Assembly: GCF_001440345.1 (NCBI RefSeq)
Contig: NZ_LJYX01000016.1
Location: 62,001-126,000, forward strand
Length of the DNA: 64,000 nucleotides
Origin: Colwellia sp. TT2012
Lineage (GTDB): Bacteria; Pseudomonadota; Gammaproteobacteria; Enterobacterales; Alteromonadaceae
Direction: 5' to 3'
The notes beneath the pieces were generated by a model. The model was not told the origin of the DNA and did no database searches. It saw nothing but the letters and a program-made list of their open reading frames with translations. Of this stretch, positions 41,712-62,157 are shown piece after piece. Made by a program: the position numbers and the translations under genes. Numbering within the stretch: position 1 is the first letter of the stretch; each line of letters starts with the position of its first letter.

Positions 41712-43045
41712 ATACTGAGCAAAGTAGCGAGCAAAGTACTTATCCGAGCAAGCCTTTAACCCGTTTTATCACCGATAAGGCTAACTGCTGGCAGTTAAAA
41801 GAATATCAAGACTTAGGCGGTTATGATGGCTTTAAACGCGCTTTAACCGTATCGAGAGCCGCGGTACTAGATGAAATAAAGGCATCCAATCTCAGAGGCC
41901 GAGGCGGAGCGGGTTTTCCTACCGGATTAAAATGGAGTTTTGTGCCGCAAGGTGATGATGCCCCTCACCCAAAATACCTAATAGTTAATGCCGATGAAAT
42001 GGAACCCGGCGCATTTAAAGACAGATTATTATTAGAAAAAACACCACATCAAATCATAGAAGGCTTACTTATCGGGGGTTATACCTTAGATGCCGACATA
42101 GGCTATATTTTTATTCGAGGTGATTATTATAGCGCTATCCAACATATCGAAATAGCACTGCAAGAATGCTACGACAATAACCTCTTAGGTAAAGATATTC
42201 TTGGCAGTGGTTTTAATTTTGAAATACATATCCATACCAGTGCTGGACGCTATATTTGCGGCGAAGAAACCGCTTTAATCAATGCCCTTGAAGGCAAACG
42301 TGCCATCCCCAGAGCAAAACCGCCCTTTCCACAAGTGGCCGGTTTATGGGGTAAACCTACCATAGTAAATAATGTCGAAACTTTTTGTAATTTACCTCAT
42401 ATTTTAAATTTTGGAGCCGATTGGTTTAAATCTTTGGGACGGTTTAAAGATGCTGGAACAAAAATATTTGGTGTTAGTGGCAGGGTTAAAAACCCTGGCT
42501 TATGGGAGTTACCTATGGGTACACCCATTGGTGAAATTATTGAGCATTACGCCGGCGGAATGTCCGATGGTTATAAGTTAAAAGGCTATCTACCAGGAGG
42601 TGGTTCAACGGATTTTTTATTAGCGAAGCACTTCGATACCCCGATGGATTATGACGAAATAGGCAAACAAAGAAGCCGTATGGGCACAGGCACCATTATT
42701 GTCTTAGATGATAAGTACTGTCCTGTGGCTATGGTATTAAATTTAGTTAAATTTTTCGCTCAAGAATCCTGTGGTTGGTGCACGCCATGCAGGGATGGTT
42801 TACCTTGGGCTGCGGTATTACTTGAGAAAATTGAACAAGGTAAAGGTGAGTTAGCTGACATTAAGCAGCTGGAAGATTTATGTAAATTTGCCGCCCCCGG
42901 CAATACTTTTTGTGCCCTTGCCCCTGGTGCGGTTGAACCATTGCAAAGTGCCCTCAATTATTTTAGAGATGATTTTGAAAAACATATAACACAAAAGTCA
43001 TGTCCTTATTGCGAACCAATCCATTCGGAGACAACTCATGACTAA
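41708..43045 (+). CDS. nuoF: NADH-quinone oxidoreductase subunit F
   Basis: A 445-residue NADH- and FMN-binding subunit. RGRGGAGFPTGLKW is the NADH/FMN glycine-rich site; the N3 cluster cysteines are in ESCGWCTPCRDG and the later APGNTFCAL. It receives hydride from NADH. It overlaps nuoE by 4 and nuoG by 8 bases. Confidence 0.97.
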   Translation: MNTEQSSEQSTYPSKPLTRFITDKANCWQLKEYQDLGGYDGFKRALTVSRAAVLDEIKASNLRGRGGAGFPTGLKWSFVPQGDDAPHPKYLIVNADEMEPGAFKDRLLLEKTPHQIIEGLLIGGYTLDADIGYIFIRGDYYSAIQHIEIALQECYDNNLLGKDILGSGFNFEIHIHTSAGRYICGEETALINALEGKRAIPRAKPPFPQVAGLWGKPTIVNNVETFCNLPHILNFGADWFKSLGRFKDAGTKIFGVSGRVKNPGLWELPMGTPIGEIIEHYAGGMSDGYKLKGYLPGGGSTDFLLAKHFDTPMDYDEIGKQRSRMGTGTIIVLDDKYCPVAMVLNLVKFFAQESCGWCTPCRDGLPWAAVLLEKIEQGKGELADIKQLEDLCKFAAPGNTFCALAPGAVEPLQSALNYFRDDFEKHITQKSCPYCEPIHSETTHD

Positions 43046-45830
43046 CATGGTCACTATCTATATCGATAACTTAGCTCATCAAGTAGCTGATGATATTAAC
43101 TTGCTGCAAGCTTGTTTGAGTTTAAAGTTAGATATCCCCTATTTTTGTTGGCACCCTGCGATGGGCTCGGTCGGTGCTTGTCGACAATGTGCGGTTATGC
43201 AATATCAAAATGAAGCAGATACCCGAGGCCGATTAGTGATGTCTTGTATGACGCCTGTATCTGAGGGCATGCGCATATCATTTAACCATGAAAAAGCCGA
43301 AACTTTTCGTGCCACCAATATAGAAGCCATGATGACCAATCATCCTCATGATTGTCCGGTCTGTGAAGAGGGTGGCGACTGTCACTTACAAGATATGACG
43401 TTGCTCACTGGCCATATAACACGCCGTTATCCTGGCACAAAACGTACTCATAATAATCAATACCTAGGGCCTTTTTTAAACCATGAAATGAATCGCTGCA
43501 TAGGATGTTATCGCTGCGTACGATTTTACCGTGATTATTGTGGCGGTAATGATTTAAATGTTTTCTCTTCAAAAAACAACATTTTTTTTGGGCGTGCTGA
43601 ACCGGGGAATTTAGAAAATGAATTTAGTGGTAATTTGGCTGAAGTATGCCCAACAGGGGTATTTACCGATAAGCCGTTTAGCCAACACTACATTCGCAAA
43701 TGGGACCTTCAATCAGCACCGTCAATTTGTACTCATTGTAGTGTCGGCTGTAATACTTATGTCACTGAACGTGGCGGTATCATCCGCAAGATCAACAATC
43801 GATATAATGCAGCAATAAATGGTCATTTTTTATGTGACCGTGGCAGATTTGCTTATCAACATGTCAATCATGACAATAAATTAACCCAGGTATGGTCTCG
43901 TACTCAGCAAAACTCTCAACAAGAGAATCAACAAAAGAATCAAAGCCAAATAACTCATGTTTTGGATAATGAGCAAGCTCATAGTCAATTATCACAATGG
44001 CTCAATGAAACTGATGCACAAGTATTAGGCATTGGCTCTGCCCGCTCCTCCCTTGAAAATAATGCCGCATTACATAAGTTAGTTGGTGGCAATAATTTTT
44101 ATGCCGGCATAGCCAATAATGAATTAAAGCAACTGCAGTTATTAATTAAAACCTATCAAAGTAAGCAAGTGGCTTTAGTTTCTCTTAGCCAAATAGAACA
44201 AAGTGATGCGGTACTTTTAGTGGGTGAAGATGTAACACAAACTGCACCTAGATTAGCCTTATCGATAAGACAAATGACTAAAAATGCTGGCATTGCTAAA
44301 GCCGCTAAACTGGGGATAAAACCATGGCAAGATGAAGCCGTGAGAAATATAAGCCAAGAGAGTAAATCACCGCTTATTATTATCAATACTGATGAAACTA
44401 AATTAGCTGATGTGGCAAAATATAACCTAAACCTAGCCCCGAATAAACAGCTTGAGCTGCTTGTAGAGATTGAAGCTTATCTAACCTGTAAATATGCGCC
44501 AACACCTTCTGCTGAAACGTTTTCTGACCTCGCCATCGCTATCGCCGATGAATTACTTGCCGCAAATAACCCGGTACTGATCACTGGCACCCATAGTTTT
44601 GATATTGCCTTATTATCAGCATGCTTGAGGCTGAGTATTTTATTAAGAAAACATAAAAAAAACTCAGGTTTTTATTGTGCAACATCATCGATTAATGCCT
44701 TAGGACTGTCTTTATTAGCACAGCCTGAACATGATATTGACAATTTACTACGCTCGATAAAAGCTACCCCGCCGACCCTACTTATCATCATGGAAACGGA
44801 TTTATACCGGTATTGCGCCAATGAAAAACTAAGTGAATATTTAGATAACATTAAACACATTGTTGTTATTGAACAAATAATGAACGATACCGTAAAAATG
44901 GCAGATTTAGTATTGCCAGCGGCCTCTTTTGCTGAACAACATAGCAGCTGGTTAAATAATGAGGGTAGATTACAACGCGCTTATGCCGTTATGCCAGCAA
45001 GTGATATGAGACAAACGCCAGTGCAATGGCTAGCACAACATAATGCACTTGATGATGGACAAAACCTTTATCGCTACATGCAAACTATCACGCCTCTTTT
45101 ACAACCGATAATGCAACTTGTAACGACTGATAAAAGTGACTTTCCCGTCGCTCGCCAACCAATGCGTTCATCAGCTCGAACGGCTTTTTTTGCTAATATA
45201 GATGTTAAAGAATATGCGCCAAAACGTGATGAAAAATCCAATTTAACCTTTACTATGGAAGGCGTTGCTGGCTTTAGGCAACAAACACTCGATAATAGCC
45301 AGCATAAAATAACCACGCCAGTAACTGGTGTCTGGTCACCTAAATGGAATTCAAATCAAGCCCTGAGTAAAAGCTTAAGTAACACCTTAAATGACTCAAG
45401 CGTTCAAGATGAAGCGGACTCAAACTTAGGCTTAAAAATATTTGACCGTATCAATAGACAAGAGTTTACAGTGCCTGCTGCGCAAATATATTCACCAAGT
45501 CAGCCATTAAATAACCTAAGTATTTGTCCTCAACATCATATTTATAGCAATGACGAGCTTGCCGATTATTCGTCAAGCATTCAACAACTAAGACCTGAGC
45601 CGGTAATTTCACTTAATCAACAGCAAGCAAAACATTTATCCCTTAAATCAGGTGAAAATATCACTATCAGCTCTGATGATTATAATATCTCTTTGCCCTG
45701 TTTTATTAGCAAGACTCTAGCAGATCAAGTTGTTTTAGTACCCTTTACCGAGTTTCTTCGCTTAGGAACTAACATGCATGTTGCAACTAAGCACTCTGCT
45801 GGCAATGCTGATGGAGATGCCAATGAATAG
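43038..45830 (+). CDS. nuoG: NADH-quinone oxidoreductase subunit G
   Basis: A 930-residue iron-sulfur subunit. The N-terminal ferredoxin domain has cysteines in PYFCWHP and GACRQCAV; HPHDCPVCEEGGDCHLQDM gives the His-Cys3 cluster; CIGCYRCVRF, a further cysteine before PTG, and CTHCSVGCNTYV supply 4Fe-4S sites. The remainder is a molybdopterin-oxidoreductase-like fold without catalytic role. The stop TAG overlaps the first nuoH-like mini-ORF (ATGAATAG), part of the unusual repeat region that follows. Confidence 0.96.
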   Translation: MTNMVTIYIDNLAHQVADDINLLQACLSLKLDIPYFCWHPAMGSVGACRQCAVMQYQNEADTRGRLVMSCMTPVSEGMRISFNHEKAETFRATNIEAMMTNHPHDCPVCEEGGDCHLQDMTLLTGHITRRYPGTKRTHNNQYLGPFLNHEMNRCIGCYRCVRFYRDYCGGNDLNVFSSKNNIFFGRAEPGNLENEFSGNLAEVCPTGVFTDKPFSQHYIRKWDLQSAPSICTHCSVGCNTYVTERGGIIRKINNRYNAAINGHFLCDRGRFAYQHVNHDNKLTQVWSRTQQNSQQENQQKNQSQITHVLDNEQAHSQLSQWLNETDAQVLGIGSARSSLENNAALHKLVGGNNFYAGIANNELKQLQLLIKTYQSKQVALVSLSQIEQSDAVLLVGEDVTQTAPRLALSIRQMTKNAGIAKAAKLGIKPWQDEAVRNISQESKSPLIIINTDETKLADVAKYNLNLAPNKQLELLVEIEAYLTCKYAPTPSAETFSDLAIAIADELLAANNPVLITGTHSFDIALLSACLRLSILLRKHKKNSGFYCATSSINALGLSLLAQPEHDIDNLLRSIKATPPTLLIIMETDLYRYCANEKLSEYLDNIKHIVVIEQIMNDTVKMADLVLPAASFAEQHSSWLNNEGRLQRAYAVMPASDMRQTPVQWLAQHNALDDGQNLYRYMQTITPLLQPIMQLVTTDKSDFPVARQPMRSSARTAFFANIDVKEYAPKRDEKSNLTFTMEGVAGFRQQTLDNSQHKITTPVTGVWSPKWNSNQALSKSLSNTLNDSSVQDEADSNLGLKIFDRINRQEFTVPAAQIYSPSQPLNNLSICPQHHIYSNDELADYSSSIQQLRPEPVISLNQQQAKHLSLKSGENITISSDDYNISLPCFISKTLADQVVLVPFTEFLRLGTNMHVATKHSAGNADGDANE

Positions 45831-45981
45831 CAGTTCCCCCCCATTAATCATATTAATTGCTTGGCTCTTCATGTTAGCTGCTTGGTCTACATTGCTAGAA
45901 CGTAGAGTGCTGTCTTTCTGGCAAGTGACTAAACATATCCAGCTTTCGTTAAATAACCTTGATGGAGAATGTAATGACTAG
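45823..45981 (+). CDS. nuoH-like mini-ORF 1 (52 residues)
   Basis: It encodes a single-helix peptide (PLIILIAWLFMLAAWST) followed by LLERRVLSFWQ, which keeps the ERR motif of NuoH, and a soluble tail (KHIQLSLNNLDGECND). GGAG lies eight bases before the ATG; that ATG overlaps the nuoG stop. Its stop (45979-45981) overlaps the next mini-ORF. Whether a stable peptide is made is unknown. Confidence 0.45.
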   Translation: MNSSSPPLIILIAWLFMLAAWSTLLERRVLSFWQVTKHIQLSLNNLDGECND

Positions 45982-46132
45982 CTGGTTAACACCCTTAATC
46001 ATTTTAATCGTCTTGCTCTTCATGTTAGCTGCTTGGTCTACGCCGCTAGTGCATAGATTTATATCTTTATGGCAAGTGACTAAACATATCCAGCCTTCGT
46101 TAAATAACCTTGATGGAGAATGTAATGACTAG
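45974..46132 (+). CDS. nuoH-like mini-ORF 2 (52 residues)
   Basis: [21 protein letters not shown] is very close to the NuoH N-terminus with one extra residue in the helix, but the ERR motif has become PLVHRFISLWQ. GATGGAG precedes the ATG by six bases. The stop overlaps the start of mini-ORF 3 as ATGACTAG. Confidence 0.45.
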   Translation: MTSWLTPLIILIVLLFMLAAWSTPLVHRFISLWQVTKHIQPSLNNLDGECND

Positions 46133-46292
46133 CTGGTTAACACCATTGATCATTTTAATCGTCTTGCTCTTCATGTTAGCTGCTTGGTCTACGCCGCTAG
46201 TGCATAGATTTATATCCTTATGGCAAGCGACTAAAAATATCCAGCCTTCGTTAAATAACCTTGATGGAGATGCAAAATGGATAGCTGGTTAA
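46125..46292 (+). CDS. nuoH-like mini-ORF 3 (55 residues)
   Basis: Nearly identical to mini-ORF 2 (V35A and H38N, plus silent changes); its tail ends DGDAKWIAG and runs 16 bases into nuoH in another frame. Ribosomes terminating here would be placed to start nuoH at 46277, preserving coupling from nuoG. Confidence 0.45.
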   Translation: MTSWLTPLIILIVLLFMLAAWSTPLVHRFISLWQATKNIQPSLNNLDGDAKWIAG

Positions 46293-47221
46293 CACCCTTA
46301 ATCATATTAGTTGTACTGCTACTATTAGGAGCTTGGTCTATTTGGCTAGAACGCAGAGTGCTGGCTTTATGGCAAGACCGATTAGGACCAAATCGTGTTG
46401 GCCCCTTTGGTTTATTGCAAGTTGTTGCCGATATGATAAAGATTTTCACCAAAGAAGATTGGGTGCCACCCTTTGCTGATAAAGTGCTCTTTATCATCTC
46501 GCCTATGATAGTCATGATCATGACACTGTTAGGCTTTGCCATTATTCCCTTTGCGCCGAATATACAAATTGCCCAATTTGATCATGCCTTATTATTTTTA
46601 TTAGCCATCAGTTCATTATCTGTTTACAGCATCATGCTAGCGGGATTTTCATCTAATAGTAAATATGCGCTGTTAGGGGCTATGCGCACCGCAGCTCAAA
46701 TGATCAGCTATGAAGTATTTATGGGGTTAGCGTTAATGGGCGTGGTGATTTTAGCCGATGACTTTAGTTTATCAGCCATCGTTGCAGCACAAGCAGATGT
46801 TTGGTTTATTTGTTATCAGCCATTAGGCTTCGTGCTATTTTTCATTGCCGGTATAGCAGAAATTCATCGTGCGCCGTTTGATTTACCTGAAGCGGAAACA
46901 GAAATCGTCGCAGGTTTTCATACCGAGTATTCCAGTATGAAATTTGGCATGTTTTTCATCGGTGAATATTTAGGCGTGATATTAATTTCCAGCTTAATCA
47001 CTACCTTGTATTTTGGTGGCTGGCAAGGCCCTTTCTTACCGCCTTTATTATGGTTTATCTTAAAAACTGGATTTTTCATACTGTTCTTTATTCTTTTACG
47101 AGCGGCAATACCAAGACCTAGATACGACCAATTAATGGTATTCGCTTGGTATATTCTATTACCTTTGTCTTTACTGAACCTATTAGTCACAGGTGCGGTT
47201 AAGTTAAGTCTTTTAGGCTAA
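46277..47221 (+). CDS. nuoH: NADH-quinone oxidoreductase subunit H
   Basis: A 314-residue membrane subunit with eight helices, at the junction with the hydrophilic arm. [32 protein letters not shown] and [29 protein letters not shown] are the invariant quinone-channel loops. Complete and normal in length. It is preceded by three partial tandem copies of its own 5' end. Confidence 0.97.
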
Positions 47222-60644: not shown

Positions 60645-60818
60645 CTAAACCGGGTTATCAATATCAACAAAGAGCACTTCAAGACCGTGCTCTTTCGCCA
60701 AATGCTCGCCTAAAGCCTTTATGCCGTAACGCTCAGTAGCATGGTGACCGGCCGCAAAACAATGAATATCCATCTCATGAGCAATAATAGGACTAGTACG
60801 GCTGGTTTGCTCAGACAC
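60645..60818 (-). CDS. NIF3 C-terminal mini-ORF, copy 1 (57 residues)
   Basis: Starts at GTG 60818 after GAGGGGGAA and reads SEQTSRTSPIIAHEMDIHCF, then the NIF3 metal-site segment AGHHATERYG, and ends FVDIDNPV. No internal stop. It equals the last fifth of the intact protein. Expression is not shown. Confidence 0.4.
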   Translation of the reverse strand: MSEQTSRTSPIIAHEMDIHCFAAGHHATERYGIKALGEHLAKEHGLEVLFVDIDNPV

Positions 60819-60893
60819 TTCCCCCTCGTTAGATAGTTGCTTCTATTGAATTGAGTTGAGTTAAGCTAAGTTGAGTTGAGCCCAGCTTAAACC

Positions 60894-61067
60894 TTAAACG
60901 GGATTATCAATATCAACAAAGAGCACTTCAAGACCGTGCTCTTTCACCAAATGCTCACCTAAAGCCTTTATGCCGTAACGCTCAGTAGCATGGTGACCGG
61001 CCGTAAAAAAGTGAATATCCATCTCATGAGCAATAATATGACTAGTACGGCTGGTTTGCTCAGACAT
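60894..61067 (-). CDS. NIF3 C-terminal mini-ORF, copy 2 (57 residues)
   Basis: ATG at 61067 lies directly behind GGGGGGAA, so the ribosome site is very close. MSEQTSRTSHIIAHEMDIHF leads into TAGHHATERYGIKALGEHL and ends FVDIDNPV. Intact over 58 codons including the stop. Confidence 0.4.
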   Translation of the reverse strand: MSEQTSRTSHIIAHEMDIHFFTAGHHATERYGIKALGEHLVKEHGLEVLFVDIDNPV

Positions 61068-61141
61068 TTCCCCCCGTTAGATAGTTGCTTCTATTGAATT
61101 GAGTTGAGTTAAGCTAAGTTGAGTTGAGCCCAGCTTAAACC

Positions 61142-61315
61142 TTAAACGGGATTATCAATATCAACAAAGAGCACTTCAAGACCGTGCTCTTTCGCCAAAT
61201 GCTCACCTAAAGCCTTTATGCCGTAACGCTCAGTGGCATGGTGACCGGCCGCAAAAAAATGAATATCCATCTCATGAGCAATTATATGACTAGTACGGCT
61301 GGTTTGCTCAGACAT
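61142..61315 (-). CDS. NIF3 C-terminal mini-ORF, copy 3 (57 residues)
   Basis: ATG at 61315 with the same GGGGGGAA directly upstream. Differs from copy 2 by only two residues (T22A and V41A). Ends FVDIDNPV. The intact gene ends 84 bases upstream of its start, so it could be read from the same transcript. Confidence 0.4.
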   Translation of the reverse strand: MSEQTSRTSHIIAHEMDIHFFAAGHHATERYGIKALGEHLAKEHGLEVLFVDIDNPV

Positions 61316-61398
61316 TTCCCCCCGTTAGATAGTTGCTTCTATTGAATTGAGCCCAGCTAAGTTGAGTTGAGCCCAGCTTAAACCTTAAACCTTAAACC

Positions 61399-62157
61399 TT
61401 AAACAGGATTATCAATATCAATAAAGAGCACCTCAAGCCCATGCTCCTTGGCCAAATGCTCGCCTAACGCCTTTATGCCGTAACGCTCAGTAGCATGGTG
61501 ACCCGCCGCAAAAAAATGGATATCCATCTCATGTGCAATATGGGTGGTTTGTTCAGAAACCTCTCCCGTTAAAAAGGCATCAATACCTTGCTCAGCAGCA
61601 AGTTCGATATAACCTTGCCCGCCGCCAGAACACCAAGCAATGGTTTTTATCGGCTTATTACTCGGTGGGGCTATATGCAAACATTCACGCTCAAGGGTTG
61701 TGTTTATTAGCGTGGCAAAGTCTTCGCCACGCCACTCTTGTTTAAAGCAGCCCTGCATAGCCACACTTAATGGGTTGCCCAGCTCAAGTGGCGCGACATT
61801 TTCAATGTTAAATAACTTAGCAAGCTGGGCATTGTTACCCAAGGTAGGATGAATATCTAGCGGTAGGTGGTAAGCAAATAAGTTGATGTCATTGACCAAT
61901 AACGATTTGATGCGATCATGCTTCATGCCGCGAATAACATAGGACTCATTTTTCCAAAAATAGCCATGGTGAACCAGAATGGCATCGGCTTGTTCACTGA
62001 TTGCACGTTCAATAAGGGCTTTAGAGGCGGTAACCCCAGTGATCACTTTATTGATGTCTTTACACCCTTGAATTTGTAAACCATTAGGGGTGAAGTCTTT
62101 TATTTGCTCTGGCTTTAATAAAGCAGTTAAATAATCTTCTAAATCTTTACTTTGCAT
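61399..62157 (-). CDS. NIF3/YbgI-family dinuclear-metal protein
   Basis: A 252-residue protein of the Nif3-like (YbgI, DUF34) family. Metal ligands are visible in ILVHHGYFWKNE, FAYHLPLDIHPTLGNN and AAGHHATERYG. E. coli YbgI forms a hexameric ring; the family is proposed to act as a metal chaperone or GTP cyclohydrolase-like hydrolase, and the biochemical role is unsettled. Full length and intact. Its stop lies inside a CTTAAAC heptad array, directly followed by three partial copies of its own 3' end. Confidence 0.92.
   Translation of the reverse strand: MQSKDLEDYLTALLKPEQIKDFTPNGLQIQGCKDINKVITGVTASKALIERAISEQADAILVHHGYFWKNESYVIRGMKHDRIKSLLVNDINLFAYHLPLDIHPTLGNNAQLAKLFNIENVAPLELGNPLSVAMQGCFKQEWRGEDFATLINTTLERECLHIAPPSNKPIKTIAWCSGGGQGYIELAAEQGIDAFLTGEVSEQTTHIAHEMDIHFFAAGHHATERYGIKALGEHLAKEHGLEVLFIDIDNPV

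Follow-up and report, generated by a model that had tools for sequence, protein, structure and literature searches.

How do three short open reading frames (ORFs), each of which starts like NuoH, come to lie between nuoG and nuoH, and what keeps them there? They were found in the window, i.e. the whole stretch of 64,000 nt of DNA that was analysed, which comes from Colwellia sp. TT2012 (G000 below; 4,420,600 bases in 223 contigs) and in which three extra units of 151 nt each are placed head-to-tail at the nuoG-nuoH junction of the complex I operon. A preliminary description, made from the letters of this stretch, had offered two readings: a tandem duplication that is tolerated because translational coupling from nuoG to nuoH survives, or small membrane peptides or a relay that tunes the output or assembly of NuoH. 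The first of these is the better supported by the results presented here.

Anatomy of the array between nuoG and nuoH

The junction comprises the following features:

43038..45830, + strand: nuoG, the upstream gene (NCBIfam TIGR01973 NuoG, above cutoff), whose tail is taken as the source of the copied SD-like site and stop
45810..45816, + strand: GATGGAG ahead of unit 1, read in the sequence and recurring at 45961, 46112 and 46263 (the last ahead of nuoH)
45823..45981, + strand: unit 1 mini-ORF, 52 aa, ERR motif kept (frame reading, direct repeat, overlap)
45974..46132, + strand: unit 2 mini-ORF, 52 aa (frame reading, direct repeat, overlap)
46125..46292, + strand: unit 3 mini-ORF, 55 aa, with its stop 16 nt inside nuoH owing to one extra base
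45844..46309, + strand: 151-nt tandem array (Tandem Repeats Finder)
46277..47221, + strand: nuoH, the downstream gene (PF00146 and NCBIfam NuoH, above cutoff), whose start and first helix are copied

Within the window, Tandem Repeats Finder gave 45844-46309 as an array with a period of 151 and 3.1 copies (score 730), and successive direct-repeat copies are spaced by 151, 151 and finally 149 or 152 nt, which bears out the three 151-bp tandem units described before. Also borne out were the uninterrupted ORFs of 52-55 codons with a NuoH-like first helix (here 52, 52 and 55 aa, counted from the ATGs chosen in that description; the program-made ORF list begins the frames further upstream), the GATGGAG that precedes each ATG, and the near identity of units 2 and 3, both of which lack the ERR motif present in unit 1. 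The mini-ORFs had been called nested, which is not an apt term, as they are tandem and each is a junction chimera with a NuoG-like tail.

The stop of every frame overlaps the next start, by 8 nt from nuoG to unit 1, from unit 1 to unit 2 and from unit 2 to unit 3, and by 16 nt from unit 3 to nuoH, so that the earlier statement on overlapping stops holds, with the last junction displaced by one base. The chain from nuoG through the units to nuoH thus has the stop/start overlaps of a translationally coupled gene chain, and from these overlaps we predict that translation of each downstream frame may depend on that of the frame before it. According to the accessible part of PMC12548453, spacings of -4, -1 and -8 nt are enriched and longer overlaps lower coupling; the 16-nt overlap of unit 3 with nuoH may therefore couple less well.

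Each unit consists of a NuoH-like start (about 33 codons with one hydrophobic stretch or helix) followed by a NuoG-like tail, and hence appears to be a chimera produced by a duplication across the nuoG-nuoH junction. In a Pfam search units 1 and 2 matched no family and unit 3 matched DUF5652 alone, below cutoff (E 0.012), a profile match to the NuoH family (PF00146) being absent in all three; the units contain about 33 of the 314 residues of NuoH. When the tail peptide of unit 2 was aligned with the NuoG C-terminus, none of 1000 shuffles was as good for G000 or for its relative G019, and 59 and 52 of 1000 were as good for two other relatives, G034 and G035, which is not significant. At the DNA level only the SD-like stretch of this tail aligns with nuoG (10, 105, 56 and 108 of 500 shuffles as good in G000, G019, G034 and G035, respectively), and a DNA search of the same genome with the whole array, for another source of the tail, returned the array and nuoH only. 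The simplest reading of these comparisons is that the unit is an old junction-spanning duplication whose tail has diverged. Its period equals 1 mod 3, the class in which reading in the nuoH frame leads to the stop of the nuoG frame, close to where the following copy starts.

Copy number in related genomes

The preliminary description had suggested comparing the nuoG-nuoH gap in relatives, and the comparison revealed that copy number varies among the four genomes that share this type of nuo operon, with three units in G000, one in G034 and none in G019 and G035. In the latter two the junction is one 8-nt overlap, relative to which the units are indeed an insertion, as had been stated. The G034 unit matches those of G000 in length and tail. 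A NuoH match was found in 12 of the 39 genomes of the genus that were searched, and the type with 98-100% identity is confined to the four genomes just named; among the matches listed, the named relatives with the most similar nuoH are Colwellia marinimaniae MTCD1, at 99%, and a pair of Colwellia MAGs, both at 98%. Among the other nuo loci examined at that stage, no further NuoH-like N-termini were seen directly upstream of nuoH outside G000 and G034. As reported in the accessible part of PMC7542103, of seven Colwellia strains compared there, only the three that are hadal piezophiles possess a nuo cluster. The nuoH of G019 is the most similar to that of G000 (99%) and the two genomes group together in a tree of lptG, yet G019 is devoid of nuo units, and therefore either its lineage has lost the units or there has been exchange of units between lineages.

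The same architecture at other gene pairs

We scanned 1,053,322 bases of G000 (845 ORFs of at least 110 aa, score of at least 62) for N-terminal copies of genes and obtained eight rows, two of which are nuoH and lptG. The latter lies in a gene pair identified as lptF and lptG by TIGR04407 and TIGR04408, both above cutoff:

L133, 3742-3870 and 3870-3998 (G000:C1), + strand: two LptG-like mini-ORFs between lptF and lptG, with the same architecture as the nuo units

The two mini-ORFs are 42 codons each, with an LptG-like start, an LptF-like end and TAATG overlaps. The other six rows (three in L108 and L213 minus, L213 plus, L209, L107 and the second L108 row) were set aside because their first residues, the only part inspected, pointed to repeats, probably spurious ORFs or similarity to an adjacent gene. 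In three other genomes the scan gave five rows (G034, one of them nuoH), one (G032) and two (G010), the remainder being set aside on first residues as well.

An LptG match was found in 38 of the 39 genomes of the genus, and 30 of these lptF-lptG junctions were read. Eight of the 30, including that of G000, contain one or two units each (12 units in total), and in the 22 unit-free junctions the spacing is -1 nt in 20, -4 in one and 0 in one. Colwellia marinimaniae has two lptFG units and no nuo units. Unit periods are 128 or 134, except for 127 in G001, whose unit is frameshifted and still ends 14 nt into lptG. Most lptFG units share an inserted motif that is absent from lptG, which suggests one origin; on the lptG tree their presence requires three changes, and all five genomes of the clade of G000 have units.

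A further scan covered 150 other loci (1,176,069 bases, 2001 ORFs; L226-L237 left out). Five of its 12 N-terminal rows were kept, namely L028 and L005 (the same place), L276, L272 and L267; L008, L011, L012, L013 and L014 were dropped as helix similarity of nuoJ and nuoK, L075 was dropped too, and L041 is an array at nuoL-nuoM. Of six C-terminal rows L038, L041 and L042 were kept, and L075 and two of L060 were dropped as compositional. In Shewanella benthica DSM 8812 the nuoG-nuoH junction contains two units of a different make, mostly nuoG tail; in S. benthica KT99 no unit was seen there. At nuoJ-nuoK, an Oceanospirillaceae MAG (L041) and an Osedax symbiont (L042) have one unit each, with ATGA overlaps on both sides, and L043 has no unit and a native spacing of -4. 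Native spacings are thus -8 for nuoGH, -1 for lptFG and -4 for nuoJK (in L043). The nuoL-nuoM array (L041 10256-10656, + strand, 137-nt period) has seemingly uncoupled frames, which by reading stop well before the next start, and it was left out as a fifth case.

Tandem repeats in the genomic background

The genome of G000 appears to be rich in tandem repeats: arrays with a period of at least 60 occupy 13 loci in the 653 kb scanned, versus 4 in 380 kb of G034, 2 in 400 kb of G032 and 6 in 400 kb of G010, the last all within one 20-kb stretch. These samples are mostly consecutive stretches rather than random ones, and several of the arrays are intragenic. Across 900 kb from 80 nuo loci belonging to other genomes, two arrays were found, L038 and L041, each at a junction of nuo genes. 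The window contains a second array, made of copies of the end of a gene of the YbgI/Nif3 kind:

60646-61540: array of period 248 (Tandem Repeats Finder)
60645-61315, - strand: three tandem 57-codon open frames, copies of the C-terminal end of the YbgI/Nif3-like gene (TIGR00486)
61399-62157, - strand: the YbgI/Nif3-like parent gene (TIGR00486)

These partial copies have no coupled neighbour, so that open copies of gene parts arise in this genome without coupling; this supports a mutational origin of such frames and cautions that a young copy may be open just by inheritance. Further G000 arrays with periods of 92-301 lie outside long ORFs (L111 15797-16956, L134 17578-18880, L138 15943-16358). 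Another locus of this genome, L135 2433-5854 on the + strand (G000:C1:180001-200000), has five tandem small ORFs of 58-66 aa ahead of two MvdC/MvdD-like ATP-grasp ORFs that score below curated cutoffs; the one small ORF that was scanned matches the microviridin/marinostatin precursor model NF033738, and the locus is a probable graspetide cluster.

The proposed stop/start relay: chance or filter

Across all loci found, every one of the 20 units overlaps the start of the following frame by 1-17 nt (unit overlaps were computed, and those between parent gene and first unit were read by eye). Random duplications simulated over six native junctions end overlapping the next start in 33-48% of cases. 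With the four junction families taken as independent founding events, the product is about 0.013 (0.326 x 0.325 x 0.364 x 0.329; a small number of events, with independence assumed), or 0.019 with the higher lptFG value, and the argument from frame hence reaches about 0.01-0.02 at best, with only four founding events, assumed independent, behind it. In a simulation of neutral drift the products for frames left open were 0.36, 0.28 and 0.27 for the lptFG sets and 0.05 for nuoGH, so openness alone is no proof of selection. The presence of lptFG units in all five genomes of one clade means that they have been kept longer than free loss might suggest.

The explanation that we consider probable, with ample room for doubt, is that recombination produces junction-spanning tandem duplications of variable copy number, which are tolerated or filtered because stop/start coupling survives them, and that no peptide function is needed. 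A tandem duplication would have spanned the overlapping nuoG-nuoH junction, the copied segment bringing along the nuoG tail, with its SD-like site and stop, and the start of nuoH. With a period of 1 mod 3 each copy would therefore form a frame that starts as NuoH, ends as NuoG and stops at the next start, and a ribosome leaving nuoG could hop via the three mini-frames to nuoH by repeated reinitiation. Recombination between copies may later have expanded or shrunk the array. Where the downstream gene encodes an important subunit, copies that disrupt the relay would be lost, and those that keep it would persist and vary in number, with selection mainly purging relay-breaking copies and not acting on the peptides. 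The corresponding reading in the preliminary description is strengthened by the copy numbers of 3, 1, 0 and 0, by recurrence elsewhere and by the overlap in all 20 units.

That same overlap, the variation of copy number at two loci (nuoGH 3, 1, 0, 0; lptFG 0, 1 or 2) and the occurrence of units throughout one lptG clade would also be expected if copy number itself were selected, each step of termination and reinitiation shifting the output of NuoH (or LptG) relative to the upstream subunit. We regard such a rheostat as rather unlikely, since an SD-like site on every unit may render initiation independent, and G019, a near sister with nearly the same NuoH, does without nuo units. In a broader form, which we put forward as a speculation that is probably wrong, junction repeats would be an evolvable device with several origins among marine gammaproteobacteria (two at nuoGH, others at lptFG and nuoJK), in which recombination adds or removes reinitiation steps and copy number sets the subunit ratio, both proteins remaining untouched.

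Possible selection on the unit peptides

If the units encoded small membrane peptides with a function, such as aiding the assembly of complex I or Lpt, their amino acid sequences should be under constraint. Pooled over the five lptFG units of 134 nt, pN/pS is 0.15 for codons 1-10 and 0.25 for codons 11-25 (the part most like lptG), which speaks for such peptides, and 1.08 for alignment codons 26-49 (the part least like lptG), which speaks against them. For 11 lptFG units (55 pairs), pooled pN/pS is 0.36 versus 0.06 for the lptG start, with the G001 unit excluded from the sets because of its frameshift. These units resemble the start of lptG in their own genome with a mean of 0.914 versus 0.867 when labels are shuffled (108 of 10000 shuffles reach 0.914), two G034 units going against this resemblance; low pN/pS in codons 1-25 can thus be due to exchange with the constrained lptG, or could reflect selective constraint on the N-terminal half of the peptide itself.

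At nuoGH, dN/dS of the G034 unit against G000 units 1, 2 and 3 is 0.76, 0.69 and 0.34, as opposed to a dN of 0.04 and a dS of 0.89 for codons 1-35 of nuoH between these two genomes; among the G000 units it is 0.42, 0.44 and 0.18. The comparison of synonymous and nonsynonymous change that had been suggested could accordingly be made for the nuo units (0.18-0.76 pairwise), and exchange with the parent gene confounds it. Hydrophobic stretches are in favour of membrane peptides, the maximum 19-residue hydropathy being 2.18-2.58 in the three nuo units tested, but it falls to 1.16 in the S. benthica units and 0.99 in the L042 unit, and presence is patchy. The notion of peptides or tuning is further weakened by near-neutral amino acid change where units are best separable from the parent gene, by the S. 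benthica and nuoJK units being mainly the tail of the upstream gene, and by the unit-free sister of G000. Judged from sequence, frames kept open with drifting content fit the nuo and lptFG data better than strongly selected peptides, and functional peptides appear improbable to us, more so than the rheostat.

Other explanations

It is very improbable that the repeat is an RNA structure or regulatory element between nuoG and nuoH. The unit 1 region folds better than shuffled sequences (z -2.61), but the regions of units 2 and 3 (z 0.25 and -0.07), the last junction (-1.27) and the controls (-1.16, 0.74 and 0.47) do not follow it, so that no stable fold shared by the nuo unit regions was found, only one of the three clearly beating its shuffles; the one Rfam match (E 1) is far below cutoff. 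On the z-scores and Rfam this was rejected as the main reading. An assembly artefact is hardly credible: repeats are easily misassembled and the number of units might be wrong, but their sequences differ from one another, they sit within a 212-kb contig, and a single unit of equal length with the same tail occurs independently in G034.

Relation to known systems

A duplicated overlapping junction would be a simple route to new short genes in operons, yielding a chain of coupled mini-ORFs in about one third of cases. Junctions that naturally hold anywhere from none to three units offer a means to measure serial stopping and restarting of bacterial ribosomes, and they are also a warning that junction ORFs may pass for small proteins though much of their sequence may drift freely. 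Each ingredient, coupling and tandem repeats, is known; no description of the repeated-junction relay was recognized among the open-licence papers listed.

Bacterial repeats of the variable-number type are head-to-tail copies whose number differs between relatives. The junction units are like them on both counts, at nuoGH and at lptFG, and differ in that the unit is a coding junction and that the periods found preserve the stop/start relay.

The accessible part of PMC8092293 gives an example of a short ORF in an operon gap that acts on the next gene. The frames described here are similarly short, lie in operon gaps and could affect the next gene; unlike that example, as far as this part of the source goes, they originate as copies of the flanking genes and have no shared RNA structure that was found.

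The closest parallel is the translational coupling of overlapping gene pairs by termination-reinitiation, as treated in the accessible parts of PMC12548453, PMC6728339 and PMC10666635. The native junctions resemble such pairs, with overlaps of -8, -1 and -4 nt and SD-like sites. Unlike in the pairs covered by those parts, here the overlap itself is repeated, so that one gene is linked to the next through a series of two to four overlaps separated by short chimeric frames.
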